Positions 9,417-27,411 of a DNA stretch of 64,000 nucleotides are shown here, piece by piece (positions within the stretch are counted from its first letter, which is position 1; every line of letters starts with the position of its first letter). Where the stretch lies: contig NC_022234.1 of assembly GCF_000463015.1 (NCBI RefSeq), positions 1,240,001 to 1,304,000 of the forward strand, given 5' to 3'. A program made the position numbers and the translations under genes. Origin of the DNA: Variovorax paradoxus B4. Lineage in GTDB: Bacteria > Pseudomonadota > Gammaproteobacteria > Burkholderiales > Burkholderiaceae_C. Below the pieces are notes generated by a model. That model searched no databases. It was not told the origin of the DNA and saw only the letters and a list, made by a program, of their open reading frames with translations.

Positions 9417-9423
9417 CGGTGCG

Positions 9424-10278
9424 ATGGACACCAGCTGGCTGCTGCACGCGCTGAACCTCGCCTACGAATTGGCGACACTGGGCCTTACCACGCTCGGCCT
9501 CGCGGTGGTGTTCGGCCTGCTCGGCGTGATGAACATGGCGCATGGCGAGTTCGTGATGCTGGGTGCCTACGCGGTCGTGACCGTGCAGGCCTGGGGCTGG
9601 CCGATCGCCACGGCCATGCCGCTGGCCATGCTCGTGTGCGGCGTGCTGGGCTATGCGGTGGAGCGCTGGCTGATCCGCCCGCTGTACGCGCGGCCTTTCG
9701 ACACATTGCTGGCCACCTGGGGTCTGGCAATGGTCATGCGCAAGACGGTCGAGGCGGTGTACGGGCGCGGCTACCGCAACGTCGAGAGCACGCTGGGCGC
9801 GCCGGTCGACCTGGGCGGCGTGCAGTACCCGGGCTACCGGCTCGCGCTGATCGCGCTGGCGGTGGTGCTGATGATCGGCCTCGCGCTCTGGTACCGGCGC
9901 AGCACCATGGGGCTGCGCGTGCGGGCGATGACCGGCAACCCGGTGCTCGCGCAGGCGCTGGGCATCGACACGCGCCGGCTGGCCTCGCAGGCCTTCGTCA
10001 TCGGCGTGGTGCTGGCCGGCGCCGCGGGCGTGCTGCTGGCACCGCTGGTGCGCATCGAGCCCGGCATCGGTGTCGACTACCTGCTCGATTCCTTCTTCGT
10101 GCTGGTGGTCGGCGGGCTCGGCACGCTCGGCGGCTTCGGCGGCGGCGTGGGCGTGATCGGCGGCACCCAGTCCGCCGTCAGCAGCATCGCGGGCCAGACC
10201 AGCGGCTATGCGGTGGTGCTGATTCTCTCGATCCTCTTTCTCTGGTTGAAACCGAATGGACTCTTTGGACGCCGTTGA
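9424..10278 (+). CDS. ABC transporter permease, LivH/UrtB type
   Basis: 284 residues, strongly hydrophobic with about eight membrane segments. It has the family motifs GLAVVFGLLGVMNMAHGEFV near the N-terminus and VVGGLGTLGGFGGGVGVIGG near the end. It forms the translocation pore together with the permease half of the next gene. It starts 7 bp after the receptor gene, and its last 23 bases overlap the start of the next gene, indicating tight translational coupling. Confidence 0.9.
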   Translation: MDTSWLLHALNLAYELATLGLTTLGLAVVFGLLGVMNMAHGEFVMLGAYAVVTVQAWGWPIATAMPLAMLVCGVLGYAVERWLIRPLYARPFDTLLATWGLAMVMRKTVEAVYGRGYRNVESTLGAPVDLGGVQYPGYRLALIALAVVLMIGLALWYRRSTMGLRVRAMTGNPVLAQALGIDTRRLASQAFVIGVVLAGAAGVLLAPLVRIEPGIGVDYLLDSFFVLVVGGLGTLGGFGGGVGVIGGTQSAVSSIAGQTSGYAVVLILSILFLWLKPNGLFGRR

Positions 10279-12064
10279 TGCTTCGCGGGCCGCCGCCGCA
10301 CCGCGGGCTCCCGCGCGCAGGTGGCGCGGGTGGCGCAGTCGAGCGGCCGGGCCGTGGCTGCTCGGCGCGGGGCTGCTGGCCCCGCCCTTCGTGTCGAACG
10401 ATTTCGTCGCCTACCAGATCGCGCTGTTCCTCATCTACGGCATTGCGACGCAAGGCGTGGCGCTGTGCTGGGGGCGACTCGGCTTCCTGCCGCTGGGGCA
10501 TGCGCTGTTCTTCGGCCTGGGCGCCTACCTGGCCGGCGGCATGCTGAAGGCGGCGCAGCAGCAGCCGGCCTGGTTCGCTGCCTTGCCGCTGGCGCTGTTC
10601 GCACCCGCCGCGCTGGCCTACGTGGCGGCGCGGCTGGTGTTCGCGCGCAGCCACCGCAGCGGGCCGTTCTTCTCGCTCATCACCCTGGCGATGACGATGC
10701 TCGGCTTCCTCGCGGCGCAGCAGTGGAGCGCGGTCACCGGCGGCTTCAACGGCATGGCCGACATTCCCGAGCTGCCCGGCACCGAGCGCTACAGCAGCTT
10801 CTACTGGGTGGTCGCGGCCTGCGCGCTGGGCAGCACGCTGCTGATCGCTGCCGTGCTCGGGCGGCCGCTGGGCCTCTTGTGGAGCGCGCTGGCGCAGAAC
10901 GAGGAGCGGCTGCAGCTCTTCGGCTGCGCCACCGACCGCATCAAGGCCGTCGCCTTCGCATTCTCCGCAACGCTCGCAGCCCTGGCCGGCGCGCTGTTCG
11001 CCATGCACCAGGGCATCGTCACACCGCTGACGATGGGCTTCGTGCTGTCCACCGAGTTCGTCATCTGGGCCGCGGTGGGCGGCAAGGCCAGTCCGCTGGG
11101 CGCGCTGCTGGGCGCCGTGTTCGTCGGCTATGCGTCGTCGGAGCTGCGCGACCACTTCGCCTACTGGGAGGTGGCTGTCGGCGCGATCTTCATTCTGGTG
11201 GTGCGGTTCCTGCCCGATGGGCTGGCCGGGTTGGGGCGGCGGTTCTCGGCGCACGCAGAAGAGATTCCGCAGGCGCACAAGACACTGGCACCGGAGGTGA
11301 GGGCGCAGGGGGCCGACGTGCGCCTCGCGTTCGAGCAGGTCGAATCCGCCCAAGGCGGCGTGCGCATCCTCGACGGCCTCACGTTCGACCTGCAGGGCCC
11401 CGGCCTGCGCTGCGTGATCGGACCGAACGGCGCGGGCAAGACCTCGGCCTTCAACGTGATGACCGGCCGCCTGCCGCTGCGCACCGGGCGCATCCGGCTG
11501 GACGGCGCCGACGTGTCGGGCGCCACCGCCTGGCGCGTGGCCCGGCAGGGCGTGGGGCGCAAGCTGCAGATTCCTTCGGTCTTTCCCGGCCTGAGCGTGA
11601 GCCAGAACCTCGATGTCGCGCTGTGGGCGGGCCGCCTGCGTCCCGCGGCGTCATTGCAGCGTGCGCCGTTGGGGTGGGACAGCCCGCTGCGCGGGGAGCT
11701 GCTCGCGCTCTTTCCCGCGCTCGGCAGGCAACTGCACGCGCCGGCCGGCAGCCTCTCGCAGGGTGAGCGGCAGGCACTGGAGTTCGTCATGACCATGCTG
11801 CCGCAGCCCCGCCTCGTGCTGCTCGACGAACCCTGCGCCGGCCTGTCGCCCGCGGAGACGCACCACATGATCGAGGCGATCAAGGCCGCGACCAGGCGCC
11901 TGGGCGCGGCGGCGCTGGTCATCGAGCACGACATCAGCGCGGTGGCCGCCATCGGTGGCGACGTCTACGTGCTGCACCAGGGCAAGCTGCTGGCGCGCGG
12001 TCCGCTGGCGCAGATCCAGGCCGATCCCGCCGTGCGGGCGGTCTATGCGGGAGCGCGCAAATGA
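10256..12064 (+). CDS. Fused ABC permease-ATPase, LivM/UrtC plus LivG/UrtD
   Basis: 602 residues. Residues about 30-330 are a LivM/UrtC-type permease (GVALCWGRLGFLPLGHALFF, FVIWAAVGGKASPLGALLGA). Residues about 355-602 are an ABC ATPase with Walker A GPNGAGKTS, signature LSQGERQALE and Walker B LVLLDEPCAGLSP. The signature variant resembles UrtD-type proteins (LSHGE/LSQGE) rather than classical LivG. The two halves are usually separate genes; here a roughly 25-residue charged linker joins them. Overlaps with both neighbours (23 bp and 4 bp) show an intact operon. A frame error creating the fusion is unlikely because the linker is in frame and GC-typical. Confidence 0.9.
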   Translation: MDSLDAVDASRAAAAPRAPARRWRGWRSRAAGPWLLGAGLLAPPFVSNDFVAYQIALFLIYGIATQGVALCWGRLGFLPLGHALFFGLGAYLAGGMLKAAQQQPAWFAALPLALFAPAALAYVAARLVFARSHRSGPFFSLITLAMTMLGFLAAQQWSAVTGGFNGMADIPELPGTERYSSFYWVVAACALGSTLLIAAVLGRPLGLLWSALAQNEERLQLFGCATDRIKAVAFAFSATLAALAGALFAMHQGIVTPLTMGFVLSTEFVIWAAVGGKASPLGALLGAVFVGYASSELRDHFAYWEVAVGAIFILVVRFLPDGLAGLGRRFSAHAEEIPQAHKTLAPEVRAQGADVRLAFEQVESAQGGVRILDGLTFDLQGPGLRCVIGPNGAGKTSAFNVMTGRLPLRTGRIRLDGADVSGATAWRVARQGVGRKLQIPSVFPGLSVSQNLDVALWAGRLRPAASLQRAPLGWDSPLRGELLALFPALGRQLHAPAGSLSQGERQALEFVMTMLPQPRLVLLDEPCAGLSPAETHHMIEAIKAATRRLGAAALVIEHDISAVAAIGGDVYVLHQGKLLARGPLAQIQADPAVRAVYAGARK

Positions 12065-12756
12065 GCACGCCGCTGCTGGTTTTCGACGATGTGGTCTGCG
12101 GCTACGGCGACACCATGGTGCTGCGCGGCCTCGCGGGCACTGTCGGCGCGGGGCGCGTGCTCGGCGTGCTGGGCCGCAACGGCGTGGGCAAGACGACGCT
12201 CATGCGCGCGCTCAGCGGCTTTCTTCCGCTGCAGCGGGGCAGGGTGACGCTCGCCGGGCGCGACCTGGCGCGCGTGCCGCCGCAGCAGCGGCTGGCCGCG
12301 GGCATGGCCTATGCGCCGCAGGAGGACGTGGTCTTCGGCGACCTCAGCGTGAGCGAGAACCTCTGGCTGCACCTGCGCGGCCGCGACGGCCAGCGCTACG
12401 CCGCCTGCCTCGAGGCATTTCCGCGCCTGGCCGAGCGCATGCAGCAGCGCGCCGGTTCGCTCAGCGGCGGCGAGCGCAAGCTGCTCTCCTTCACGCGCAC
12501 CCTCGGGCTGCGCGCGCCGCTCAGCATCCTCGACGAGCCCACCGAGGGCGTGCAGCCGGAGAACATCGAGCGCATGGTCCGGCTGGTTGGCGCGCGCAAG
12601 GCCGAGGGTGCGTCGTTCGTCATCGTCGAGCAGAACCTGGAGTTCCTGCTGTCTGTGGCCGACGACATCCTGGCCATCGACCATGGCGAATGCTCGCTGG
12701 CGGGGCCGGCCAGCGAGCTGCCGCGCGAGACGCTGGAGGCGCACCTGGTGGTCTGA
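12061..12756 (+). CDS. ABC transporter ATPase, LivF/UrtE type
   Basis: 231 residues. Walker A is GRNGVGKTTLM, the signature LSGGERKLLSF, and Walker B LSILDEPTEGVQPENI. The PTEGVQP loop is typical of UrtE/LivF proteins. Its ATG overlaps the previous stop codon by 4 bp. It completes a five-component importer (receptor, permease, fused permease-ATPase, ATPase) for the amide operon. Confidence 0.9.
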   Translation: MSTPLLVFDDVVCGYGDTMVLRGLAGTVGAGRVLGVLGRNGVGKTTLMRALSGFLPLQRGRVTLAGRDLARVPPQQRLAAGMAYAPQEDVVFGDLSVSENLWLHLRGRDGQRYAACLEAFPRLAERMQQRAGSLSGGERKLLSFTRTLGLRAPLSILDEPTEGVQPENIERMVRLVGARKAEGASFVIVEQNLEFLLSVADDILAIDHGECSLAGPASELPRETLEAHLVV

Positions 12757-15468: not shown

Positions 15469-16563
15469 CTAGACGAGGTACTGGCGCACCGCCTCCTCGT
15501 TCCACGCGATGCCGGTGCCAGGCTCCGGCGGCGCGATGGCTGTGCCGTCCGCAAAGGCCAGGGGCCGCGCCAGCACCGGCGCCGCGAGGTCCATGCGCTC
15601 GAGCAGGTGCCGTGTCGGCGTGACGGCCAGCAGGTGCACGCTGACCTCCTGGAAGATGTGGCTCGACATCGGCACACCGTGCGATTGCGCCAGCGCCGCG
15701 GCGCGCAGCCAGCCGGTCACGCCGCCGATCTTCATCGCGTCGGGCATGGCGAGGTCGCAGGCACCGGCCTGCAGCGCCTTGGCCATCTCGCCGGGGCCGC
15801 ACCAGTTCTCGCCCATCTGGATCGGCAGGCGCACCTGCTCGCGGATGCGCGCGTGGCCGGCATAGTCTTCCTGCAGCGTGGGCTCCTCGACCCAGCCGAT
15901 GCCTTCGTCCTCCAGCGCGCGGATGCGGCGCACCGCCTCGACGGCCGTCAGGCCCTGGTTGTAGTCGACCAGCAGTTGCGTGTCCTCGCCGATCACGCCG
16001 CGCAGCGCGCGAACGATGGCCAGGTCCTCGGCCAGCGTGGCATAGCCGATCTTCGTCTTGATGGCCTGGAAGCCTTGGGCCATCGCCCCTTCCGCTCGCG
16101 CCACGCCGAGTTCGCGGCCGTCCATGCTGTGGCTGTCATAGGCCGCGATGGCGCGGCGGGTGCCGCCCAGCAATTCCACCAGCGGCATGTTGCGCACCTT
16201 GGCCAGCGCATCCCACGCCGCCATGTCGAGGCCCGCGCTCGCCATGAGCGCAATGCCGGTGCGCCCGAGCAGGCGCAGCCGCTGCGCGAGCAACTGGTCG
16301 AGGTCGACCGGCGCAAGCGCCTGGCCCTTGAGCACGCCGCCCAGCGTCAGCAGCATGCGACGCGTGGCCCGCAGGGCGAGCGGCGTGTAGGTGAAAACGT
16401 AGGCATGGCCGACGGCGCCCTGGTTGGTGTGCAGGTCGATCAACACCAGCGGGGCGGTCGCCACCACGCCGACGCTGGTGCGCACGGGGTGCTCGAGCGG
16501 CACGTTGACCGCGCGCGCCTGCACGTCGGTGATCAACAGGCCGGGATCGGTGGGCATGTTCAT
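15469..16563 (-). CDS. mdlA: Mandelate racemase
   Basis: 364 residues, enolase superfamily. It interconverts (R)- and (S)-mandelate. Every mechanistic residue of Pseudomonas putida mandelate racemase is present at a constant offset of +5: the base pair in IKTKIGY (Lys169, Lys171), the metal ligands Asp200 (DYN), Glu226 (EEP) and Glu252 (GEN), the Asp275-His302 dyad (MPDAMKIGG, SSHIFQE) and Glu322. Extended identity around AVNVPLEHPVRTSVG, TAPLVLIDL and LAMPDAMKIGGVTGW makes a true racemase more likely than a general sugar-acid dehydratase. Its ATG has an AAGGAGA site and lies 11 bp after the last transporter gene, so it is the last gene of the mandelate operon. Confidence 0.87.
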   Translation of the reverse strand: MNMPTDPGLLITDVQARAVNVPLEHPVRTSVGVVATAPLVLIDLHTNQGAVGHAYVFTYTPLALRATRRMLLTLGGVLKGQALAPVDLDQLLAQRLRLLGRTGIALMASAGLDMAAWDALAKVRNMPLVELLGGTRRAIAAYDSHSMDGRELGVARAEGAMAQGFQAIKTKIGYATLAEDLAIVRALRGVIGEDTQLLVDYNQGLTAVEAVRRIRALEDEGIGWVEEPTLQEDYAGHARIREQVRLPIQMGENWCGPGEMAKALQAGACDLAMPDAMKIGGVTGWLRAAALAQSHGVPMSSHIFQEVSVHLLAVTPTRHLLERMDLAAPVLARPLAFADGTAIAPPEPGTGIAWNEEAVRQYLV

Positions 16564-16574
16564 TCGCTTCTCCT

Positions 16575-17303
16575 TCACAGTCCGAGGTAGGCGGCCTTCA
16601 CGCGCTCGTCGCGCAGCAGCTGCGCGGCCGGGCCGCCGAGCGTGATGGTGCCGGTTTCCAGCACATAGCCGACGTCGGCCACCGACAGCGCGGCGTGCGC
16701 GTTCTGCTCCACCAGCAGGATCGGGATGCCCTGCGCCTTCAGCCGCGCGATCACGCCGAAGATCTCCTTCACCAGCAGCGGCGCCAGGCCCATCGAAGGT
16801 TCGTCGAGCAGCAGCACCTTGGGCTCGCTCATCAGGGCGCGGGCAATGGCCAGCATCTGCTGCTGGCCGCCCGAGAGCGTGCCGGCGGCGAGCAGGCGCT
16901 TCTCCTGCAGGATGGGAAACAGGGCGTACATCTCTTCCATGCGCTGCTGGCGGCGTTCGGGGCGGGTGTAGCTGCCCAGCAGCAGGTTGTCCTGCACGGA
17001 GAGCGGCCCGAAGACCTGCCGGCCTTCCAGCACCTGCGACAGCCCGGCGCGCACGCGCGCGTCGGCGCTCTCGCGGCCGATCTCTCGGCCGAACAGGCTC
17101 ACGCTGCCTGCGCTGGGCTTGATGAGGCCGGAGAGCGCGCGCAGCAGCGTCGTCTTGCCCGCGCCGTTGGCGCCGATCAGCGCCACCAGTTCGCCGCGGC
17201 CGAGCCGCAGGTCGATGCCGTGCAGCGCCTCGATGCGGCCGTAGCCGGCGAAGAGGCCGCGCACTTCGAGCGCGGCGCTGCTGCCGGTAGTTGCGCTGCT
17301 CAT
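16575..17303 (-). CDS. livF: ABC transporter ATPase, LivF type
   Basis: 242 residues. Walker A is GANGAGKTTLLRAL, the signature LSGGQQQMLAIARAL, Walker B VLLLDEPSMGLAP and the switch LLVEQN. It energises import through the LivH/LivM pore encoded upstream. It overlaps livG by 4 bp. Being sandwiched between mandelate catabolic genes suggests the importer carries mandelate or a related aromatic acid rather than leucine. Confidence 0.9.
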   Translation of the reverse strand: MSSATTGSSAALEVRGLFAGYGRIEALHGIDLRLGRGELVALIGANGAGKTTLLRALSGLIKPSAGSVSLFGREIGRESADARVRAGLSQVLEGRQVFGPLSVQDNLLLGSYTRPERRQQRMEEMYALFPILQEKRLLAAGTLSGGQQQMLAIARALMSEPKVLLLDEPSMGLAPLLVKEIFGVIARLKAQGIPILLVEQNAHAALSVADVGYVLETGTITLGGPAAQLLRDERVKAAYLGL

Positions 17304-18082
17304 GCGGCCTCCGCGATGTCAACGGCTTCGCTCGCCGCCTCGGTGCCGAGATACGCCGCGATCACGTGCGGATTCGCGCGCACTTCGGCGGCCGTGCCTT
17401 CGGCGAGCTTGCGGCCGTAGTCGAGCACCAGCAGATGGTCTGAAATGTTCATCACCAGCTTCATGTCGTGTTCGACCAGCAGCACCGTCACGCCCGAGGC
17501 CGCGATGCGGCGGATGAGTTCGGTGATCTCGTGCGTCTCGGTGTCGTTCAGGCCGGCCGCCGGTTCGTCGAGCAGCAGCAGGCGCGGCCTGCTCGCCAGC
17601 GCGCGCGCAATCTCCAGCCGCTTGAGCAGGCCGAAGGACAGCTGCGTGGCGTGCGCATGCGCGTGCCGGCCCACGCCCACCTCGTCGATCAGCCGCAGCG
17701 CCTCCTCGCGCAGCGCGGCGTCCGCGCGGCGCGTGGCACCGGTCATGCCGCCCAGCAGCGAGCTGCGCGTGCGCAGGTGGGCGCCGAGCATCACGTTCTC
17801 GCACGCGGTCATGTTCATGCAGACCTGCAGGTTCTGGAAGGTGCGGCTCATGCCCCGGCGCGCAAGCTGGTCGGGTGCGAGGCCTGCCACGTTCTCGCCG
17901 TCGAGCAGGATCTCGCCGCGCGTGGGTTCGTATACGCCGCTGATCAGGTTGAACAGCGTGGTCTTGCCCGCGCCGTTGGGCCCGATCACCGAGTGCACCG
18001 AGCCGGCGCGCACCGTGAAGCTCACGTCCTGCATGGCGTGCACGCCGCCGAAGGACTTGGAGAGGTTCTTCACTTCGAGCAT
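17300..18082 (-). CDS. livG: ABC transporter ATPase, LivG type
   Basis: 260 residues. Walker A is GPNGAGKTTLFNLI, then ISGVYEP and the LivG-typical GMSRTFQNLQ. The helical insert and FGLLKRLEIARAL take the place of the canonical signature, followed by Walker B LLLLDEPAAGLND and switch LLVEHDM. The end overlaps the livF start by 4 bp; the start lies one base after the livM stop. It is the second ATPase of the mandelate-operon importer. Confidence 0.9.
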   Translation of the reverse strand: MLEVKNLSKSFGGVHAMQDVSFTVRAGSVHSVIGPNGAGKTTLFNLISGVYEPTRGEILLDGENVAGLAPDQLARRGMSRTFQNLQVCMNMTACENVMLGAHLRTRSSLLGGMTGATRRADAALREEALRLIDEVGVGRHAHAHATQLSFGLLKRLEIARALASRPRLLLLDEPAAGLNDTETHEITELIRRIAASGVTVLLVEHDMKLVMNISDHLLVLDYGRKLAEGTAAEVRANPHVIAAYLGTEAASEAVDIAEAA

Positions 18083-18083
18083 C

Positions 18084-19028
18084 TCAGGCCTTCCTGCGCA
18101 GCTTGAGCGCGATGGAGGGCACGAGTCCCTTGGGCAGGAACATCATGGTCAGCATCAGCACGAGGCCGAAGAACACCATCTCGTAGCCGTGCAGCCCACC
18201 CAGCAGTTGCGGCAGGGCGGTGAGCAGGGCCGCGCCCAGCACCGCCCCGAAGGTCGAGGCCATGCCGCCGAGCACCACCATGGTCGCCAGCTCCACCGAG
18301 TGAGTGAAGGCGGCGAGCGAGGGGCTGATGAAGCCCAGGTAGTGCGCCGTGAGGCTGCCCGATACGGCCGCGAACACAGCCGAAAGCACGAAGGCACGCA
18401 CCTTGAAGCGCGCCACGTCCACCCCCATCACGCGCGCCGCCACCTCCGAGCCATTCAGGCCCCGCAGCGCGCGCCCGCCCGGCGATTCGTACAGGTTGAG
18501 CGAAAGCAGCACCGACAGCCACAGCAGCACCGCCGCCAGCGTATACCAGTGCAGCACCTTCGCGAAGGCGAAGCCGCCGACCACCAGCGGCGGCACCGGC
18601 ATGCCGTCGGGCCCGCCGGTCCAGTCCACTTCGTTGATCAGCACGATGTTGACGATCACGCCCAGGCCCAGCGTGGCCATGGTGAGCGAATGGCCCTTGA
18701 GCCGCAGGATCGGCTTGGCGATCAGCCAGGCGACGACCGCCGCGCCAAGAGCTGCGCCGCCGATGGCCGTCAGCGGCGGCCAGCCGAAGCGCACGGTCAC
18801 GATGCCGCTGCCATAGGCGCCGATGGCGACGAAGGCCGCATGCCCGATGCTGATCTGGCCGGCAAAGCCCATCAGCAGGTTGAGCCCGATGGCGGCGATG
18901 GCGGCGAGCGCGATGCGCACGGCCACGTCGATCACGTAGTTGTTCGGCATGGCCAGCGGCAGCAGCGCGAGCACCAATGCCAGCACCAGCAGGGAGGGGC
19001 GCAAGAGCGCATGCGTTCCTGCCTTCAT
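18084..19028 (-). CDS. livM: ABC transporter permease, LivM type
   Basis: 314 residues with about eight membrane segments. The motif GLNLLMGFAGQISIGHAAFV is diagnostic of LivM, followed by GHSLTMATLGLGVIVNIVLI and VVLGGMASTFGAVLGAALLT. The start MKAGTHALLRPS is set by the ATG at 19026-19028, which overlaps the livH stop by 4 bp. It forms the membrane pore with LivH. Confidence 0.9.
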   Translation of the reverse strand: MKAGTHALLRPSLLVLALVLALLPLAMPNNYVIDVAVRIALAAIAAIGLNLLMGFAGQISIGHAAFVAIGAYGSGIVTVRFGWPPLTAIGGAALGAAVVAWLIAKPILRLKGHSLTMATLGLGVIVNIVLINEVDWTGGPDGMPVPPLVVGGFAFAKVLHWYTLAAVLLWLSVLLSLNLYESPGGRALRGLNGSEVAARVMGVDVARFKVRAFVLSAVFAAVSGSLTAHYLGFISPSLAAFTHSVELATMVVLGGMASTFGAVLGAALLTALPQLLGGLHGYEMVFFGLVLMLTMMFLPKGLVPSIALKLRRKA

Positions 19029-19897
19029 ACGCGCTCCGAGGCCTTGGCGCCGAACAGCCCGTGCGGCATGACCAGCAGGATGAAGACGATCAGCACGAAG
19101 GGCACCGCGTCCTTGTAGGCCGACGACACGTAGCCCGCCATCAGCGCCTCCAGCAGCCCGACGATGAGCCCGCCCACCACCGCGCCGCCCGCGCTGCCGA
19201 GGCCGCCGAGGGTGGCTGCGACGAAGCCCTTCATGCCCAGCATGAGGCCGATGTCGTAGACGGTGGTGGTGATCGGTGCGGCCACCACGCCGGCCACGGC
19301 GCCCAGCAGCGCCGAGAGGCCGAACGAGAGCTGCAGCACGCGCGAGGTGGGGATGCCCACTGCGCGCGCCGCCAGCGCGTTGGCGGCCACCGCCAGCATC
19401 GCCTTGCCGACCATGGTGAAGCGGAAGAACGCGAAGCACAGGGCGACCAGCACCGCCGCCGTGCCCAGCACCCACAGGCTCTGCGGCAGCACATATGCGC
19501 CGAGGATGGAGAGCGACGCGTCGCCGCTGAAGGGCGGCAGCGTCTGCTGGTTCTTGCCGAGCACGATCTGCACCACCCCCTGGATGAAGATCGACGCGCC
19601 GATGGTGATGATGATGAGCGACACCACGCTGGCCTCTCCGGCCGGCCTGATCGCCAGCCGGTAGAGCAGCAGGCCCGCCGCCACGGTGGCCAGCACGCCG
19701 CCCGCAATGGCCAGGCCGTACGGCAGGTTGGCACCCAGCATGGCGGCGGTGATCATCGCGCCGAGCATCAGGAAATCGCCCTGGGCGAAGTTGATGACGC
19801 CGCTGGCGTTGTAGATCAGCGAGAAGCCCAGCGCGGCCAGCGCATAAATCGCGCCGGTGGTGAGCCCCGAGAAAACGAATTGCATGAAGTCAGCCAC
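19025..19897 (-). CDS. livH: ABC transporter permease, LivH type
   Basis: 290 residues with the LivH signatures FMQFVFSGLTTGAIYALAAL and VINFAQGDFLMLGAMI, and late GFVAATLGGLGSAGGAVVGG. Its first eight bases overlap the end of the mandelate dehydrogenase gene, linking transporter and catabolic genes in a single translationally coupled operon. Confidence 0.9.
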   Translation of the reverse strand: MADFMQFVFSGLTTGAIYALAALGFSLIYNASGVINFAQGDFLMLGAMITAAMLGANLPYGLAIAGGVLATVAAGLLLYRLAIRPAGEASVVSLIIITIGASIFIQGVVQIVLGKNQQTLPPFSGDASLSILGAYVLPQSLWVLGTAAVLVALCFAFFRFTMVGKAMLAVAANALAARAVGIPTSRVLQLSFGLSALLGAVAGVVAAPITTTVYDIGLMLGMKGFVAATLGGLGSAGGAVVGGLIVGLLEALMAGYVSSAYKDAVPFVLIVFILLVMPHGLFGAKASERV

Positions 19898-21065
19898 GGC
19901 GGTCTCCGGCTTGGGGGTTGACGAGCAGGTGCTGCGCCGAGATGTCGGCCACGCGGTCGGCGCCGATCAGGATCATGGTGCGGGCGATCTCCTCGGACAG
20001 CGCGGCCAGCACGCTGCGCGCGCCGGCCTCGCCCTCCGTGGCCATGCCCCACGCAGCGGGGCGGCCGACGAAGGCGGCAGTGGCGCCGGCGGCCAGCGCC
20101 TTGACCACGTCGCTGCCGCGGCGGAAACCGCCATCCACGAACACGGGAATGCGCTGCGCCACCGCATCGACCATGCGCGGCAGCACAGAGATGGTGGAGG
20201 GCGCTGCATCGAGCTGACGCCCGCCGTGGTTCGACACCACGATGGCGTCCGCACCGTGCGCGATGGCGCGTTCGGCATCGTGCGGATGGAGCAGTCCCTT
20301 GATGACCAGCGGCCCATCCCACAGCCCGCGCAGCCAGGCCAGGTGCTCCCACACCAGCGTGCGGTCCATGGTGCGCGACAGCAGCGCGGCCTGCACCTGC
20401 GGCGAGGTGGCACCATCGTCCGATTCCGTGAGGTTGACGAAGGAGGGCGAACGGCCCTGCATCGCCATACCCAGAGACCAGGACGGATGCAGTGCGAGGT
20501 CAAGCAGCGTCGAGGGCGTGAAGCGAAAGGGCAGCTTGAAGCCGTTGCGCACGTCGCGCTCGCGCAGGCCGCTGACGGTGGCGTCCACCGTCAGCACCAG
20601 CGCGCCGTAGCCCGCGTGGCGCGCGCGCCGCACCAGCTGTTCGGCGATCGTCCGGTCGCCCATGACGTACAGCTGCATCCACTGCACGGCATCGGGATTG
20701 CGCGCGAGCGCGGCGTCGCGCACGGCCTCGAGCCGGTCGTTGGAGGGCGTGGGCAGCACATGCGGCACGCCGACAGAAGCCGCGGCGCAGGCCAGCAGCG
20801 TGTCGCCGTGCGGCCGCACCAGCCCCGAGAAGCCGATCGGCGCCACGCCCGTCGGCGCAGACCAACGCCGGCCGAACACCGTGATGCCGGTGTCTGCATG
20901 ACGGGTGTCGCACAGGGCGGTGGGCAACAGATGCAGGCCGGCCAGATCGGCGGTATTGCGCCGCAGGCAGTCTTCGTTCTCGGCGCCGCCGTCGACATAG
21001 TCGAAGACGAAGCGCGGCAGCCGCCGGCGCGCGTGGCGTCGGTGGTCGTTTGCATTGAGCTTCAT
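19890..21065 (-). CDS. mdlB: FMN-dependent (S)-mandelate dehydrogenase homologue
   Basis: 391 residues, FMN-dependent 2-hydroxy-acid dehydrogenase family. It probably oxidises (S)-mandelate to benzoylformate with electrons passed to the quinone pool. Active-site residues are Tyr23 (FDYVDGGAENE), Tyr133 (MQLYV), Arg168 (GLRERD), Lys256 (LVIKGLL), His280 and Arg283 (SNHGGRQLD). Long blocks match P. putida MdlB in arrangement, including ALVLTVDATVSGLRERDVRN, the LHPSWSL segment of its membrane-anchoring loop and WEHLAWLRGLWDGPLVIKGL. A general lactate dehydrogenase is the alternative, but linkage to mandelate racemase favours MdlB. It starts 30 bp after the receptor gene and overlaps livH. Confidence 0.85.
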   Translation of the reverse strand: MKLNANDHRRHARRRLPRFVFDYVDGGAENEDCLRRNTADLAGLHLLPTALCDTRHADTGITVFGRRWSAPTGVAPIGFSGLVRPHGDTLLACAAASVGVPHVLPTPSNDRLEAVRDAALARNPDAVQWMQLYVMGDRTIAEQLVRRARHAGYGALVLTVDATVSGLRERDVRNGFKLPFRFTPSTLLDLALHPSWSLGMAMQGRSPSFVNLTESDDGATSPQVQAALLSRTMDRTLVWEHLAWLRGLWDGPLVIKGLLHPHDAERAIAHGADAIVVSNHGGRQLDAAPSTISVLPRMVDAVAQRIPVFVDGGFRRGSDVVKALAAGATAAFVGRPAAWGMATEGEAGARSVLAALSEEIARTMILIGADRVADISAQHLLVNPQAGDRRG

Positions 21066-21095
21066 GCGTGTCCTTCTCTGCAGGGCCGCACGGCC

Positions 21096-22271
21096 TCAGC
21101 GCACTTCCTTGAACGCGCCTCCCTGCACCTCGACCATGCGGAACGCCGACACGTCGAGGCCCATGTGGTCGGCGGCCGACATGGTGTAGATGCCGCTCAC
21201 CCCGACGAAACCTTTGGTGGCCTCGATCGCGTCGCGCAGCTTCTGCTTGTCGGTGCCGCCCGCGCGCTGGATCGCGTCGACCAGCAGGAAGAGCGCGTCA
21301 TGCGCATAGCCGCCGAAGGTGGACACGTCCATCCTGGCCTGCGATTCGAATTCCTTCGCATACGACACGCTGACCTTCTTCTGCGTGTCGCCATCGGGCA
21401 GCGCCTGCGCAATCAGCAAGGCGGGCGAGGGCATGCGGATGCCTTCGGACGACTTGCCCGCGATGCGGATGAACTCCGTCGAGGCCTGGCCGTGCGTGGT
21501 GTACAGCGGCTGCTTCATGGCCAGCTGCTGGTAGTTGCGCGCGATGATGGCCGGCGCCTGGCCCGTGCCGAACACCAGGATCGCCTGCGCGGGCGAGGAC
21601 TTGATGCGCGTGAGCTGCGGCGTGATGTCGGTGTCCTTCTCGCCGTAGGTCTGGTCTTCGGCCACCTTCATGCCGAGCGTGCCGGCGAGCTTGAGGGTCT
21701 CGGTGCGGCCCGACTTGCCGAAGCCGCCGGTGTCGGACAGCAGCGCAAACTGCGTGAAGCCACGGCGCTTCATTTCGCCGAGCACCTTCTCGGCCGCCAT
21801 GCGGTCGGAGTGCGGCATCTTGAAGACGTAGGGCTTGACCGGCTCGACGATGACCGAGGCTGCGGCGAGCGAGATCATCGGTACCTTCGCCGCTTCCGCC
21901 TGCGGCACCATCGCCATGGTGGCGCCGGTGGTCGAGGCGCCGACGATGACGTCGACCTCGTCCTGCATGATGAGCCGGCGCGTGAAGGCGTTGGCCTTGT
22001 TGGCGTCGCTGGCGTCGTCGTACAGCACCAGCTCGAGCTTGCGGCCGAGCACGCCGCCGGCGGCGTTGATCTTTTGCACGTACATGGCAAGCGTCTTCTG
22101 CTGCGGGTCGCCGAGGAACGAGGCCGGGCCGGTGGCGGAGACCACCGCGCCGATCTTGATGGGATCGGCAGCGTGCACGGCGGCAGCCAGCGGCAGCAGC
22201 GCGGCGCCGGCCAGCAGGGAAGCGACGGCGCGACGGCCGATGCGAAGGTGGGGGAACTTGGCGATTTTCAT
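21096..22271 (-). CDS. ABC transporter substrate-binding protein, Liv type
   Basis: 391 residues from the ATG at 22269-22271 with a GGAGAC ribosome site. The signal peptide is KFPHLRIGRRAVASLLAGAA with cleavage likely after AVHAA. The mature receptor begins DPIKIGAVVSATGPASFLGD and has KINAAGGVLGRKLELVLYDD, typical of Peripla_BP_6 proteins that bind branched-chain or aromatic acids. It sits between iorB (37 bp upstream) and mdlB (30 bp downstream), and supplies the binding component for the LivHMGF subunits of this operon. Ligand inferred to be mandelate or a related aryl acid. Confidence 0.88.
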   Translation of the reverse strand: MKIAKFPHLRIGRRAVASLLAGAALLPLAAAVHAADPIKIGAVVSATGPASFLGDPQQKTLAMYVQKINAAGGVLGRKLELVLYDDASDANKANAFTRRLIMQDEVDVIVGASTTGATMAMVPQAEAAKVPMISLAAASVIVEPVKPYVFKMPHSDRMAAEKVLGEMKRRGFTQFALLSDTGGFGKSGRTETLKLAGTLGMKVAEDQTYGEKDTDITPQLTRIKSSPAQAILVFGTGQAPAIIARNYQQLAMKQPLYTTHGQASTEFIRIAGKSSEGIRMPSPALLIAQALPDGDTQKKVSVSYAKEFESQARMDVSTFGGYAHDALFLLVDAIQRAGGTDKQKLRDAIEATKGFVGVSGIYTMSAADHMGLDVSAFRMVEVQGGAFKEVR

Positions 22272-22308
22272 TTTTTGTCTCCTGATGGTTCTGCGTGAGG
22301 GAATCTCT

Positions 22309-23865
22309 TCAGCGCGCCGGTCTTCGCCGCACGATGTGGATGGGGTGGGCGCGCACCTCCGGCGCCGGCAGGCCGAGTGCGCGCGCCAGCGTGCGGCCCT
22401 CGGGGTCGGCCAGTGCGGCTTCGCGGGCCGAACGCACGCGGTCGGCGGCCTGCTCGAGCGAACCGGCATCGTGCGAGGCCGAGGCCATCGTGGCCTGCAT
22501 GTCGTCGAGCACGGCACCGAGGTTGCGGTGGCCGCGCTCGCTGGTCTCTCCGTAGCCCTTGACGAGGTTGCCGCACAGCGCCAGCTCGAAGGCCAGCCGC
22601 GGGCTGAGCGCGAGCGCGCGCCGCACGGCTTCGAGCCAGCGTTCGATCATGGCCTGCTCGAAGGCGTAGCGCGAGGTGCGCCGGCGCAGCGGCCGCAGCG
22701 AACGCAGCGCGCACAGCATGGCGAAGCCGCGCACGGTGTCGGTGCGCATGTGCAGGCCGATGCTCAGCTTGTGGGACTTGTGCGCGAGGCGCGCGCGCAG
22801 CCAGTCGGCGGCGCGCGTGGGCAGCAGCGAACAGATCTCGTCGAGCCCGGGCTTGAGGTATTCGGTCAGCCGCAGCGGCTCGCCATCGCGCGCGCCGACT
22901 TCCTTGCGCACCCGCTGCAGCCGGTCGCCGCGCGTCTTGAGGTCGGCGACGCGGATCACGTCCTCGTAGCTCATCCACAGTGCGAGGTAGCGCGCGGTTT
23001 CGCGCGCCACGGGGAAGTCGCCGCCGTGTGCGCGCTCGGCTTCGCACACGACCTGGACGCGATCCAGGTAGAGATCGGCGTAGCGTGCGTCCTGGTAGTC
23101 GGCGACCTGCCGCAGGCCATGGCTCACCAGCTTGCGCAACGGCTCGGGCATTGCCTGGGCGCGCGGATGGAGGGCAGAGGCTGCGACCGTGCCTTGTTCG
23201 GCAGACGCCGCACTCGCTGTGCCCGTCACATGGTCGTAGCCCGCAGCAAACCCCTTGAGGCTCGCTTCCACCGCCTTGCCCGATTCGCGGATCGCCTGCT
23301 CGCAGGCTTCGCGCGAGAAGGGAAGGGCGCCGCTGCCGGCCATCGCGCCGAACATCACCGTGTTGATCACCGTGCCGTTGCGCCAGGCCAGCGCACGCAT
23401 GTCGAAGAGGAAGGTGCGCTGCGCGAGGCGCCGCGCCGCCTCGGTCACGCGCTGGCCGTCGTAGCGGCCGTCGCCCATCGCCGACTTCTCCGACACCGCG
23501 TACTCGCGGTGCAGCGACGCCACCAGCGTGGTGCGCTGCGGATGCACGAAGCCGCCCTGCAGCACACGCCCGGCCTCCACGAGCTCGGAGGCCGCGACGA
23601 TGTTCACGTCGCCCGGGTTCGGCGTGAGCGAGAACACCGGCCGCGCGCCGCCGAGCTGCGCGCTCGGCACGGGGTAGATCTCGATGTAGTAGTTGGTCGC
23701 GCCGGTGCGCTGCGCCACGCCGGGAACCGAGGTGCTCTGCACCGGGAAGTCGTGCGCCGCGGCGGCCGAGATCAACCAGTCGGCCAGCACGCCGCCGCCT
23801 TCGCCGCCCATGGCGGCCACCAGCACGGTCACGATGCGCGGGGTGGATGTGCGCGCGGTGTTCAT
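22309..23865 (-). CDS. iorB: Indolepyruvate-type 2-oxoacid oxidoreductase, beta subunit
   Basis: 518 residues. The N-terminal about 200 residues form the 2-oxoacid:ferredoxin oxidoreductase gamma-type domain (VLVAAMGGEGGGVLADWLIS, STSVPGVAQRTGATNYYIEI, NPGDVNIVAASELVEAGRVL). The long C-terminal region (about 250-500) is the extension found in proteobacterial IorB proteins. The enzyme decarboxylates an aryl 2-oxoacid, making the aryl acyl-CoA and reduced ferredoxin. The ATG at 23863-23865 overlaps the iorA stop (ATGA). In this operon benzoylformate (phenylglyoxylate), the product of MdlB, is a plausible substrate instead of indolepyruvate or phenylpyruvate. Confidence 0.85.
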   Translation of the reverse strand: MNTARTSTPRIVTVLVAAMGGEGGGVLADWLISAAAAHDFPVQSTSVPGVAQRTGATNYYIEIYPVPSAQLGGARPVFSLTPNPGDVNIVAASELVEAGRVLQGGFVHPQRTTLVASLHREYAVSEKSAMGDGRYDGQRVTEAARRLAQRTFLFDMRALAWRNGTVINTVMFGAMAGSGALPFSREACEQAIRESGKAVEASLKGFAAGYDHVTGTASAASAEQGTVAASALHPRAQAMPEPLRKLVSHGLRQVADYQDARYADLYLDRVQVVCEAERAHGGDFPVARETARYLALWMSYEDVIRVADLKTRGDRLQRVRKEVGARDGEPLRLTEYLKPGLDEICSLLPTRAADWLRARLAHKSHKLSIGLHMRTDTVRGFAMLCALRSLRPLRRRTSRYAFEQAMIERWLEAVRRALALSPRLAFELALCGNLVKGYGETSERGHRNLGAVLDDMQATMASASHDAGSLEQAADRVRSAREAALADPEGRTLARALGLPAPEVRAHPIHIVRRRPAR

Positions 23866-26024
23866 GCGGCGAGCGCCTCCGCGCGGTCGCGCGCCTTGCC
23901 GGCCATCAGGCCGATGACGCCGCCGCGCAGCCGGTGCAGCAGGCGCTCCCAGGTGCCGGCGTTCTGCACGATCTCCGCCTTGTAGAAGGAGGGGCACAGA
24001 ATGGCGGCATGCGCGTTCTCGCCGCACAGGCCGCAGCCCACGCAGCCCTGGTTCACGGTGGCCACCGGGTCGGTGCGCAGCGCGCTCGGGTTGGGCTTGA
24101 CGGTGAGCGAGGGGCAGCCCGACAGGCGGATGCAGGAGTGGTCGCCGGTGCACACGTCGTCGTCGATGCCGAAGCGCGTGCGCACCACGCGCTCGCCGCG
24201 CTTGAGCTTGGCGGCATTGACCGGCTTGATGCGGCGCTGGCGCTCGAGCTGGCATTCGCCGTCGGCAATGATCACCTTCAGGCCGCCTTGCTCGGTGGTC
24301 ATGGCCTCCTGCAGCGTGTCGCGCATCTCGGCGACGTTGTAGCTGGTGACCTTGCGCACCCACGCGACGCCGACGCCCTTGAGCGCGGCTTCGATGTCGA
24401 GCGTGAGCGGCCGTGCCGCCGGCTGCATGGGAGAAGAAGGAATGGCCTGCGTGCCGGTGGCCGAGGTGTAGCCGTTCTTCAGGATCACCAGCACCGAGTC
24501 CTGGCCGTTGTAGACCGCGTTCACCACGCCGCTGGTGAAGCCGTTGTGCCAGAAGCCGCCGTCGCCCATGATGCTGACGACGCGGTTGCCCATGAGCGGG
24601 CCCACGCCCGAGGAACTGGCCAGCCCCAGCCCGTAGCCGAGCACCGTGCTGCCGGTGTTGAAGGGCGGCAGCGTTCCGAAGGTGTGGCAGCCGATGTCGG
24701 CGCTCACGTGGACCGCACCGAGCTCCTTCTGCATCAGCTTGATGGCGGCGAACACCGGACGCTCGGGGCAGCCGATGCAGAAACCCGGCGGCCGGTTCGG
24801 CACCGGCACGCCCAGCGCCTGCACCGCCTGCGGCTTGAGCGTGGCCAGCGGCGCGGCGGCGTCGCCGACCTGTGCCACGCCGTCGTCGCCCAGTGCCTGC
24901 GGCTGCGCCTGGCGGATGAAATCGGAGATGCAGCGTACCAGCACTTCCCCGGTGTATTCGCCGGCCATCGGGAAGATGTCCTTGCCGTGCAGGCGCGTGT
25001 CGCAGCCGGCCTTGCGCAGGATGGCGTGCAGCGCGTCTTCCATGTAGTTGGGCTGGCCTTCCTCGACCATCAGCACCGCGCGCTTGCCGGCGCAGAAGTC
25101 CACCAGCTCGTCGGGCACCATTGGGTAGACCACGTTGAGCACCTGCAGCGGAATGCGGCTGTGGCCGAAGGCGTCGGCCAGGCCGAGCTGCTGCAGCGCG
25201 CGGATGGTGCCGTTGTAGAGGCCGCCGGGCAGGATCAGGCCGATGTCGCCGCAGTCGCCTTCGAAGCGCTCATTGAGGCGCTCGCGGCGGATGAAGTCGA
25301 GCGCGGCCGGCCAGCGCGAGTCCACCTTCATGCGCTCTTGCGCATAGATCGATGGCGGCAGGTTGATGTTCGCGAAGTCGAAGTGCGGCTTCTCGATGAC
25401 GTCGCGCGTGGAGATGGCCGGTGCGCGGTTGTCCTTGCACACGAAGCTGCCGTGCACGTGGCAGGCGCGGATGCGCAGCTGCAGCATCACCGGCGTCTGG
25501 CTTGCTTCGGAGAGCTCGAAGCTGCGCTCGACCGCATCGACGATGGACGTCAGGTTGGGCCGCGGGTCCATCAGCCACATCTGCGACTTCATGGCGAAGG
25601 CGTGCGTGCGCTCCTGGATGATGCTGGAGCCCTCGCCGTAGTCCTCGCCCAGGATCACGAGCGCGCCGCCCTTCACGCCGGCGGAGGCGAGGTTGGAGAG
25701 CGCGTCCGAGGCAACGTTGGTGCCCACGGTGGACTTCCACGTCACCGCGCCGCGCACCGGGTAGTTGATGGAGGCGCCGAGCATCGCGGCCGCGCCGGCC
25801 TCGGAGGCGCTGTTCTCGAAGTAGATGCCGAGCTCGTCGAGCAGCCCGCGCGCATCGCCGAGCACGTCGATCAGGTGCGACACCGGCGCGCCCTGGTAGC
25901 CGCCGATGTAGCTCACGCCCGACTGCAGCAGCGCCTTGGTGACGGCAAGGATGCCCTCGCCATGAAATACCTCGTCGGCGCCCAGTGAAAGGCGTTTGAT
26001 TTCTTCGGCGAAAGATCGCTCCAT
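23862..26024 (-). CDS. iorA: Indolepyruvate-type 2-oxoacid:ferredoxin oxidoreductase, alpha subunit
   Basis: 720 residues. The N-terminal pyrimidine-binding domain has GADEVFHGEGILAVTKALLQ and SYIGGYQGAPVSHLID, then ENSASEAGAAAMLGASINYP. The ThDP-binding domain has FCIGCPERPVFAAIK, DIGCHTFGTLPPFN and the GDGGFWHNG...N motif (MGDGGFWHNGFTSGVVNA). The C-terminus carries two [4Fe-4S] cysteine sets (CTGDHSCIRLSGCP and CVGCGLCGENAHAAILCP). It is first in the long minus-strand operon ending in mdlA. It begins at an ATG with GGAG 10 bp upstream. No ferredoxin gene is adjacent, so a genome-encoded electron carrier must serve it. Confidence 0.9.
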   Translation of the reverse strand: MERSFAEEIKRLSLGADEVFHGEGILAVTKALLQSGVSYIGGYQGAPVSHLIDVLGDARGLLDELGIYFENSASEAGAAAMLGASINYPVRGAVTWKSTVGTNVASDALSNLASAGVKGGALVILGEDYGEGSSIIQERTHAFAMKSQMWLMDPRPNLTSIVDAVERSFELSEASQTPVMLQLRIRACHVHGSFVCKDNRAPAISTRDVIEKPHFDFANINLPPSIYAQERMKVDSRWPAALDFIRRERLNERFEGDCGDIGLILPGGLYNGTIRALQQLGLADAFGHSRIPLQVLNVVYPMVPDELVDFCAGKRAVLMVEEGQPNYMEDALHAILRKAGCDTRLHGKDIFPMAGEYTGEVLVRCISDFIRQAQPQALGDDGVAQVGDAAAPLATLKPQAVQALGVPVPNRPPGFCIGCPERPVFAAIKLMQKELGAVHVSADIGCHTFGTLPPFNTGSTVLGYGLGLASSSGVGPLMGNRVVSIMGDGGFWHNGFTSGVVNAVYNGQDSVLVILKNGYTSATGTQAIPSSPMQPAARPLTLDIEAALKGVGVAWVRKVTSYNVAEMRDTLQEAMTTEQGGLKVIIADGECQLERQRRIKPVNAAKLKRGERVVRTRFGIDDDVCTGDHSCIRLSGCPSLTVKPNPSALRTDPVATVNQGCVGCGLCGENAHAAILCPSFYKAEIVQNAGTWERLLHRLRGGVIGLMAGKARDRAEALAA

Positions 26025-26164
26025 GGCTTTGTGTCTCCGGCTGGCAGCCTCGAGGCGCCGGCTTTTTTTCGTGGGGCCCGCCGCTCGGTGGCGATGGCGG
26101 GTCGATCAAGTGGGAGGACTTTAGGAGCGCAGGGGCAGAGGACCAATCGATGTGGCTTGCGTTA

Positions 26165-26176
26165 CACATAGATGTG
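26165..26176. promoter_or_regulatory. Inverted repeat in the nitrilase/iorA divergent promoter
   Basis: CACATAGATGTG (5-bp arms CACAT/ATGTG) is flanked by ATCGAT hexamers at about 26146 and 26177. It lies in the 283-bp region between the divergent nitrilase and iorA starts, the only stretch that could hold both promoters. A regulator-binding role is inferred from position and symmetry only. Confidence 0.35.
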
Positions 26177-26307
26177 ATCGATGAAGCTCGGGACGGCGAT
26201 TCCTGCCGGCATCGACCCACTCGATAGGCAACAACGGCGGCATGGATAGGGAAGGACCGAGCACCACTCCTAGAGTCCAGATCCCCTACCGAAAGAGACT
26301 CACCGTC

Positions 26308-27411
26308 ATGACCTCGCCCTCGAAGACTCAGTACAAAGTGGCGGCCGTCCAGGCTGCACCCGAATTCCTCGACCTCGGCAAGGGTGTGGACAAGGCCATC
26401 GGGCTCATCGCCGAGGCGGCGCGCAACGGCGCTTCGCTGATCGCGTTTCCGGAGGTCTGGCTGCCGGGCTGCCCGTGGTGGATCTGGCTCGACTCACCAG
26501 CCTGGGGCATGCAGTTCGTGCAACGCTACTTCGAGAACGCGCTCGTGATTGGCAGTCCCGAATGGGAGCGGCTGCGGGCCGCCGCCGCGCAGCATGGGAT
26601 TCACGTCGTGCTGGGCTTCAGCGAGCGCGAGGGCGGCACGCTCTATCTGGCGCAGGCCATCATCGACGACCGCGGAGAGGTCGTCGCGACACGTCGCAAG
26701 CTCAAGCCCACGCACGCGGAGCGCACGGTGTTCGGCGAGGGCGACGGCAGCCACCTGGCCGTGCACGAGACCGCGCTCGGCCGCATGGGCGCGCTGTGTT
26801 GTGCGGAGCACATCCAGCCGCTGAGCAAGTACGCCATGTACTCGCAGCACGAGCAGGTGCACATCGCGGCGTGGCCGAGCTTTTCCGTCTACCGGGGCGC
26901 GGCGTTCCAGCTGAGCGCCGAAGCCAACAACGCGGCCAGCCAGATCTACGCACTCGAGGGACAGTGCTATGTCATTGCGCCCTGCGCGACGGTCTCCAAG
27001 GAGATGCTCGATCTGCTGATCGACTCGCCGAACAAGCGCGCCCTGCTGCTGGAAGGCGGCGGCTTCGCGATGATCTATGGCCCGGACGCCAAGCCCTTGT
27101 GCGAGCCGCTGCCCGAGACGCAAGAGGGCTTGCTGTATGCGGATGTCGACCTGGGCGCCATCGGCATCGCCAAGGCTGCCTACGATCCGGCTGGCCACTA
27201 CTCGCGCCCGGATGTGCTGCGGCTGCTGTTCAACAAGAAGCCCAGCGCGCGCGTGCATGCGTTTGACCCCGAATACAACGAACAACATGCCGCGGCGCAG
27301 GCAGGCGAAGCGCCGGGAGGCTGGGGCGTCTATCGATCCAGGAATTCGATCGCCCTGGGCACGAAGTCGGCATGGAACTGGAACACGCTGCCGTGCCCGG
27401 CATCGGGATAG
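26308..27411 (+). CDS. Nitrilase, arylacetonitrilase type
   Basis: 367 residues. The carbon-nitrogen hydrolase triad is Glu49 (IAFPEVW), Lys131 ([19 protein letters not shown]) and Cys165 ([12 protein letters not shown]). The usual Trp after the catalytic Cys (CWEH) is Ala here (CAEH). As I recall, the same alanine occurs in the arylacetonitrilase of Pseudomonas fluorescens EBC191, which acts on mandelonitrile and releases much mandelamide as well as mandelate. The enzyme converts nitriles to acids in the cytoplasm. It is divergent from the mandelate operon. The last roughly 27 residues overlap the convergent hydrolase gene by 82 bp and look unlike a normal nitrilase tail, so the native 3' end may have been replaced. 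The start at 26308 is set by conserved [17 protein letters not shown]. Confidence 0.85.

Follow-up and report, generated by a model that had tools for sequence, protein, structure and literature searches.

Mandelate genes and an IorAB-type oxidoreductase in one operon of Variovorax paradoxus B4: a proposed CoA-dependent variant of the mandelate pathway

In the classical route of mandelate breakdown, (S)-mandelate dehydrogenase is followed by a decarboxylase and a benzaldehyde dehydrogenase (excerpts of PMC10204090). What consumes benzoylformate in an operon that carries the first enzymes of this route and has a 2-oxoacid oxidoreductase, IorAB, in the place of the later ones? The question is raised by Variovorax paradoxus B4, in a stretch of 64,000 nucleotides (positions 1,240,001 to 1,304,000 of contig NC_022234.1; hereafter the window) on the smaller of the two contigs of the genome (~1.35 and ~5.8 Mb). 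Nine minus-strand genes run from 26024 to 15469 in the window, in the order iorA-iorB-binding protein-mdlB-livH-livM-livG-livF-mdlA. From comparison of these genes with their relatives we consider it likely that they encode a coenzyme A (CoA)-dependent variant of the mandelate pathway, in which mandelate is converted to benzoylformate and then to benzoyl-CoA without free benzaldehyde.

Mandelate genes and iorAB in a single run

A preliminary description of this locus had reported one run of genes on the minus strand with overlaps or gaps of at most 37 bp, and the coordinates bear out its order, strand and spacing (Table 1). The iorA and iorB genes overlap by 4 bp, mdlB and livH by 8 bp, livH and livM by 4 bp, and livG and livF by 4 bp; gaps of 37 bp (iorB to the binding protein gene), 30 bp (binding protein gene to mdlB), 1 bp (livM to livG) and 11 bp (livF to mdlA) separate the others. 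Neither mdlC nor mdlD is among the genes of the run, as that description had also stated.

Table 1. Position and assignment of the operon genes and neighbouring features (window coordinates)
Feature	Coordinates	Strand	Assignment
iorA	23862..26024	minus	720 aa; thiamine diphosphate (ThDP)/Fe-S-type subunit; proposed large subunit of a benzoylformate oxidoreductase
iorB	22309..23865	minus	518 aa; POR domain PF01558 + PF20169 (DUF6537); NF006179, 594 bits
Binding protein of importer	21096..22271	minus	periplasmic; PF13458
mdlB	19890..21065	minus	flavin mononucleotide (FMN) (S)-mandelate dehydrogenase; PF01070, 429 bits
livH	19025..19897	minus	permease; PF02653
livM	18084..19028	minus	permease; PF02653
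livG	17300..18082	minus	ATPase; PF00005 + PF12399
livF	16575..17303	minus	ATPase; PF00005
mdlA	15469..16563	minus	mandelate racemase; 454 bits to 1mdr, ungapped
Nitrilase	26308..27411	plus	PF00795; start codon 26308 or 26242
Operator-like motif	26144..26173	minus	ATCTATGTGTAAC-N9-ATCGATTG; 30 bp; 120 bp upstream of iorA, between iorA and nitrilase
LysR regulator	12799-13695	plus	LysR domains; lies beyond the hipBA pair
Second ATP-binding cassette (ABC) importer	8328..12756	plus	binding protein 8328-9416; permease 9424-10278; permease-ATPase fusion 10391-12064; ATPase 12061-12756
Amidase	6815..8221	plus	NF005688 (indoleacetamide hydrolase), 610 bits, cut-off 532

By sequence, MdlA is a mandelate racemase. 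It aligned with the Pseudomonas putida enzyme (1mdr) over 203 identical residues of 356 (57%) with no gap and a constant offset of +5, and it retains K164, K166, D195, N197, E221, E247, D270, H297 and E317, which we take to be the catalytic and metal-binding residues of that enzyme; the earlier claim that all catalytic residues are kept at +5 was thus confirmed. The same nine residues are present in seven other complete MdlA sequences of the group of related loci described below, an eighth (L024) being cut short, and L298I and L319M were the sole changes among 22 catalytic and pocket positions examined. The score to 1mdr compares with 346 and 306 bits for two chains of the superfamily whose substrate is not named, and with 159 bits for the first named sugar-acid enzyme. 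MdlB, likewise described beforehand as matching blocks of (S)-mandelate dehydrogenase, aligned with chain 6bfg_A at 308 bits and 161 identical residues of 367, internal segment included; a tandem lactate-oxidase chain, 7f22, exceeded this in total (316 bits) by summing four pieces. MdlB retains Y26, G81, Y131, R165, H274 and R277, presumably the active site, and its internal segment, with a conserved HPxW, aligned with what we take to be the membrane segment of (S)-mandelate dehydrogenase. Given the closeness of both proteins to their P. putida counterparts, the 2-oxoacid to be expected is benzoylformate, and within the run IorAB is the sole candidate to consume it.

Oxidoreductases of the IorA type that act on 2-oxoacids carry a GDG-X(24-27)-N ThDP motif and Fe-S-type cysteines. 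A GDG-X27-N motif, with GDG at residue 487, was present in all 85 aligned IorA sequences, as were eleven cysteines in the C-terminal half (C416, C419, C446, C591, C625, C631, C637, C661, C664, C667 and C677). IorB scored 594.5 bits against NF006179 (PRK08312), above the cut-off of 348. Against TIGR03336, the equivalog model for indolepyruvate oxidoreductase (IOR), IorA reached 279.7 bits, under the cut-off of 650.9, so its substrate is read here from gene context alone. The top PDB chains for the binding protein were 3sg0_A (141 bits) and 7ylt_B (140 bits), the former presumably a Rhodopseudomonas palustris receptor solved with an aromatic ligand.

From this arrangement we infer a route in which the Liv-type importer would take up an aromatic acid (mandelate or benzoylformate), MdlA would interconvert (R)- and (S)-mandelate, and membrane-bound MdlB would oxidise (S)-mandelate to benzoylformate (phenylglyoxylate) with transfer of electrons to the quinone pool. 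By oxidative decarboxylation IorAB would then convert benzoylformate and CoA to benzoyl-CoA, CO2 and reduced ferredoxin (or another reduced acceptor), and the ring would be opened aerobically by the products of box genes on the larger replicon.

The mandelate-linked IorA clade and its genomes

A genome scan, from which the best 80 of 570 confirmed stretches were taken, gave 79 loci, with an IorA identity of at least 77% in nine and at most 69% in the other 70. Nine loci of the scan, three genomes of the family and the window make up the 13 clade loci compared here (L159 being a longer reading of L028); one further genome, G080, looks like the same genome as G009, with matching BoxB scores, and was counted once. 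In a quick maximum-likelihood tree of 85 IorA sequences the mdl-associated proteins formed one clade of 13 rows (Shimodaira-Hasegawa-like approximate likelihood-ratio test 100, stem 0.42), and the two other IorA paralogs of the V. paradoxus B4 genome, at ~60% identity, fell outside it. Distances between IorA sequences and between MdlB sequences were correlated (0.89 over 36 pairs). An mdlB gene was found near iorAB in nine of the 13 loci, an mdlA gene in nine, and at least one of the two in 11, the exceptions being L013 and L159; the binding protein was present at 73% identity or more in nine. The clade is rare (5 of 349 genomes of the family), and in a search at the level of the order, which 14 of 399 genomes passed, clade-level identity was found in the window's own genome, the rest lying at 63-69% and outside the clade. 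The closest named IorA sequences were those of V. boronicumulans EBFNA2 (96.9%) and Variovorax sp. Root411 (94%). A plasmid record of 938 kb from the former (L166) shows the same operon order; hipBA, LysR, the second importer and the amidase come after it, and no nitrilase lies upstream of iorA.

Two side observations concern the architecture of iorA loci. In Xenophilus azovorans (L024:12198-14377) iorA and iorB are separated by two inserted genes, one for a TctC receptor and the other for a second member of the mandelate racemase superfamily, which does not have the K166, D270 and H297 of the racemase where these residues align. Three Bordetella loci have relatives of both genes upstream of iorA. 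One IorA paralog of the V. paradoxus B4 genome (L164, C2:1.716 Mb) is accompanied by a CoA ligase, a gene resembling reductases and a large subunit of ring-hydroxylating-dioxygenase type that scores below model cut-offs, and this locus would be another aromatic cluster.

The preliminary description had proposed looking elsewhere in the genome for mdlC and for box genes. These searches revealed an aerobic benzoyl-CoA (box) cluster on the larger replicon, with BoxB (TIGR03225) at C2:96706-98118 and TIGR03224 and TIGR03222 matched in adjoining genes; BoxA, BoxB, BoxC, benzoate-CoA ligase and 3,4-dehydroadipyl-CoA semialdehyde dehydrogenase all scored over cut-off in this genome. BoxB was over cut-off in all 13 clade genomes (ten together with G055, G263 and G323), compared with 186 of 349 genomes of the family. 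No mdlC product was recognised, the best of nine matches in the genome to the benzoylformate decarboxylase model (NF005485) scoring 236 bits against a cut-off of 493. The same holds for 11 of the 13 clade genomes, this one included, with none of the ten and two of the other three positive. These nine matches, and the conversion of phenylglyoxylate via benzaldehyde to benzoate by Cupriavidus necator (excerpt of PMC7057948), are what could be said for an unrecognised ThDP decarboxylase elsewhere that turns benzoylformate into benzaldehyde and leaves IorAB another, minor role. We regard this as very unlikely, given that members of the family over the cut-off score 768-862 bits and that all nine matches lie on the other contig than the window. 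PadI (NF045766) did not reach its 700-bit cut-off in any of the 13 clade genomes (best 101 bits), while two other genomes have PadI by the same model, with scores of 810 and 833 bits.

A more direct link between iorAB and the box genes was seen in Xenophilus sp. E41 (L159), whose contig begins inside iorA. Here iorAB (0-3.3 kb) is followed within ~12 kb, to ~15 kb, by a binding protein gene (26% identity), a flavin adenine dinucleotide (FAD)-dependent amino-acid-dehydrogenase-like gene, and homologs of BoxD, BoxR, BoxC, BoxB and BoxA, respectively 69%, 54%, 75%, 92% and 72% identical to the proteins of V. paradoxus B4. At the place of the whole benzoate-CoA ligase of the V. paradoxus B4 cluster there is a remnant (L159:6978-7376) that matches 133 of 515 residues at 43% and contains stops in frame, as would be expected if benzoate activation were not needed at that cluster. 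The Xenophilus sp. E41 genome has a second BoxB. The gene between iorAB and the box genes (L159:5567-6895) resembles FAD-dependent D-amino-acid dehydrogenases and could, speculatively, supply benzoylformate from phenylglycine.

Flanking genes, other iorAB loci and alternative substrates

The interval of the preliminary description ended at 27411, which is the end of a plus-strand nitrilase gene that it did not mention. This nitrilase matched NitA (6zby) at 581 bits, with the next chain at 357; we take 6zby to be the P. fluorescens EBC191 nitrilase acting on mandelonitrile. Four of the 13 clade loci have a nitrilase gene: in the window, L160 and L162 its neighbour is iorA or the LysR gene, and in L161 it stands ~2.5 kb off, the three relatives being 77-85% identical. 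The amidase has relatives at 62-63% identity in L024, L160 and L162 and at 43% in L161, and is possibly a mandelamide hydrolase. Beside it lies a second ABC importer, conserved in L024, L160, L162 and L166, whose binding protein resembles urea and amide receptors. Because mandelate genes stand beside the nitrilase and the amidase, mandelonitrile and mandelamide are their simplest putative substrates, which the two enzymes would convert to mandelate, although they may act on indole analogues instead. Near this amidase module, at 3573-5186, lies a transposase-like gene whose rve and Mu-type domains score just under Pfam cut-offs.

Divergent LysR genes, 48-60% identical to that of the window, adjoin iorA in nine other clade loci. 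Upstream of iorA we found an operator-like motif with the consensus ATCGATnTGTAAC-N9-ATCGATTG in 11 of the 13 clade loci, the gap always being nine and mismatches numbering 0-3; L159, which starts inside iorA, stands outside this count. L166 likewise has the motif upstream of iorA (3 mismatches), and L162 carries it a second time in the interval from the LysR gene to the nitrilase. When the window was shuffled 30 times, no hit appeared with 4 or fewer mismatches allowed, but the consensus had been drawn up by eye from these same sequences. A generic scan for T-N11-A palindromes in the region before iorA yielded a single match in 12 loci and nothing shared. The LysR regulator may act at the 26144-26173 motif. 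In the window a HipA/HipB-type toxin-antitoxin pair (13708-15356) lies between the LysR gene and mdlA, and among 14 clade loci searched hipBA was matched in the window and in L166 of V. boronicumulans only.

A nitrilase and an 'indoleacetamide hydrolase' together with iorAB raise another reading, in which IorAB would serve arylacetic acid or auxin metabolism as an oxidoreductase for phenylpyruvate or indolepyruvate, with the mandelate genes as mere neighbours. The database names indolepyruvate oxidoreductase and indoleacetamide hydrolase (the latter over cut-off) speak for it. IorAB has moreover been given as the phenylpyruvate enzyme of Aromatoleum aromaticum and suggested as such for Desulfococcus multivorans (excerpts of PMC9765128 and PMC5109826, respectively), and two genomes outside the clade that carry PadI have iorAB together with pad-type genes. 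No gene forming an arylpyruvate was found in the run, however, whereas mdlA, mdlB or both lie near iorAB in 11 of the 13 loci and box genes do so in L159, and the V. paradoxus B4 genome has its two other IorA paralogs; we therefore judge this reading to be quite unlikely for the operon. The two genomes with PadI deserve separate mention. L026 has box genes, PadBCD-like genes, iorAB and bzd genes, with PadI elsewhere in the genome, and in L034 PadI lies directly upstream of iorA. We had entertained L026 as a case of iorAB replacing PadEFGHI, and dropped it on account of the PadI in that genome and the PadI beside iorA in L034.

Among the 70 loci outside the clade, many of them on short contigs, PadB and DpgC queries matched L026, L040 and L048 only. 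DpgC leads to arylglyoxylates. PadBCD does so too (excerpt of PMC5109826). The DpgC-like genes L040:2753-4042 and L048:7869-9182 lie near iorAB, together with CoA ligases, and in L048 also with PadB- and PadC-like genes. They scored 421 and 397 bits over nearly the full model length against a cut-off of 530, and are thus DpgC relatives rather than members. No PadI match was found at E 1e-20 in either genome. A PadB search of 398 phylum genomes gave two matches; no close iorAB was present in the 20-kb stretch of either, the IorA relative in L182 being at 26%, and plasmid records gave none. The gene content of L040 and L048 suggests an aerobic arylacetate route through an arylglyoxylate, in which IorAB could consume the arylglyoxylate or make arylacetyl-CoA upstream. 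Since DpgC has (3,5-dihydroxyphenyl)acetyl-CoA as its named substrate, and the importers of L040 and L048 are ~50% identical to that of the window, these loci also lend something to the view that the cluster handles ring-substituted mandelates (e.g. hydroxymandelate) and that the product of IorAB is a substituted benzoyl-CoA, for instance 4-hydroxybenzoyl-CoA. This is unlikely in view of the MdlA pocket, where V22, V26, V29, F52, Y54 and L93 are as in P. putida mandelate racemase, and of BoxB, of the route for unsubstituted benzoyl-CoA, in all 13 clade genomes. A wider proposal would make the IorAB branch a general arylglyoxylate:acceptor oxidoreductase (CoA-aroylating), that is, a second, two-subunit phenylglyoxylate dehydrogenase in aerobes, supplied with arylglyoxylate from mandelate by MdlB in the clade of the window, and from arylacetyl-CoA by DpgC-like dioxygenases (L040, L048) or PadB/PadC-like proteins (L048). 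It would link mandelate, mandelonitrile and aerobic arylacetate breakdown to ring opening of CoA thioesters, and we put it forward tentatively, as a possibility somewhat short of probable.

Several observations weigh against the CoA-dependent mandelate route. No relative of IorA with a solved structure was found by sequence and, IorA being below the NCBI cut-off for IOR, its residues do not reveal its specificity. The operon run contains no gene for a ferredoxin or a reductase. Residue 105 of the window MdlB is Pro at the position of P. putida Ser108, which is Ser in P. putida and in all eight other clade MdlB sequences. Co-variation was uneven, the correlation for binding protein and MdlA being only 0.35. 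The 13 clade genomes were not randomly drawn, and three of them are Bordetella, outside the family sampled for BoxB. L160 is without the motif, and its nearest LysR protein is only 30% identical. Absence of the decarboxylase is no depletion, as only 43 of 349 genomes of the family have the enzyme, and shows only that this genome has no recognised classical step. G263 and G323 carry benzoylformate decarboxylase as well, and their iorAB clusters are without mdlB; since the decarboxylase of G323 lies ~1.7 kb from an MdlB 57% identical to that of the window, this genome probably holds both routes. IorAB in L026 and L034 may make phenylacetyl-CoA from phenylpyruvate, a reading that fits at least as well there because these genomes carry PadI. 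The passage from mandelate through benzoylformate to benzoyl-CoA, as put forward in the preliminary description, remains a proposal, supported by the linkage to mdlA or mdlB that recurs across several genera of the clade, by the separation of this clade from the other IorA paralogs of the genome, by the absence of a decarboxylase or PadI over cut-off in this genome, by its box genes, and by the box genes near iorAB in L159.

Relation to known pathways

Mandelate breakdown is a textbook example of how enzymes evolve, with the benzaldehyde branch regarded as its aerobic route. The variant proposed here, made of known enzyme families, would be new and is well supported by genome comparison; in agreement with the preliminary description, which knew of no IorAB acting as phenylglyoxylate dehydrogenase, we found no account of mandelate or phenylglyoxylate being oxidised by IorAB among the matches listed in the open-licence PubMed Central (PMC) literature. 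If true, the CoA-thioester branch would bypass a toxic aldehyde, spare the ATP that activating benzoate costs and conserve electrons in a low-potential carrier; it would also provide a substrate for an IorAB clade whose present annotation is indolepyruvate oxidoreductase. The clade may further point to the type of enzyme to look for in organisms with no assigned fate of phenylglyoxylate, as described for D. multivorans (excerpt of PMC5109826).

Like the classical pathway, whose gene order in P. putida is mdlA, mdlB, mdlC, mdlD, the operon of V. paradoxus B4 provides mandelate racemase and (S)-mandelate dehydrogenase for the initial steps. The amidase of the window may be a further likeness, P. 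putida having an amidase for mandelamide. The operon differs in having iorAB in the place of mdlC and mdlD, benzoyl-CoA as the proposed product and an ABC importer within the operon. Regulators of the classical decarboxylase route have been described (excerpts of PMC7057948 and PMC10204090), and divergent LysR regulators, as found here, are among those described for classical clusters in the latter. With the phenylglyoxylate:NAD+ oxidoreductase PadEFGHI of Thauera, Azoarcus and A. aromaticum (excerpt of PMC5109826) the system would share its reaction, phenylglyoxylate + CoA to benzoyl-CoA + CO2. In contrast to the five genes and NAD linkage of PadEFGHI, it has two subunits and occurs in genomes with the aerobic box route, with PadI below its model cut-off in all 13. 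Indolepyruvate:ferredoxin oxidoreductase IorAB has the same subunit families, ThDP motif and conserved cysteines; unlike that enzyme, the IorAB described here belongs to a separate, mandelate-linked clade with IorA below the TIGR03336 cut-off, and would convert an arylglyoxylate to an aroyl-CoA rather than form an arylacetyl-CoA. The aerobic benzoyl-CoA (box) pathway is the proposed sink of the IorAB product, and differs from its usual form in that benzoyl-CoA would here arise without benzoate or an ATP-dependent ligase.

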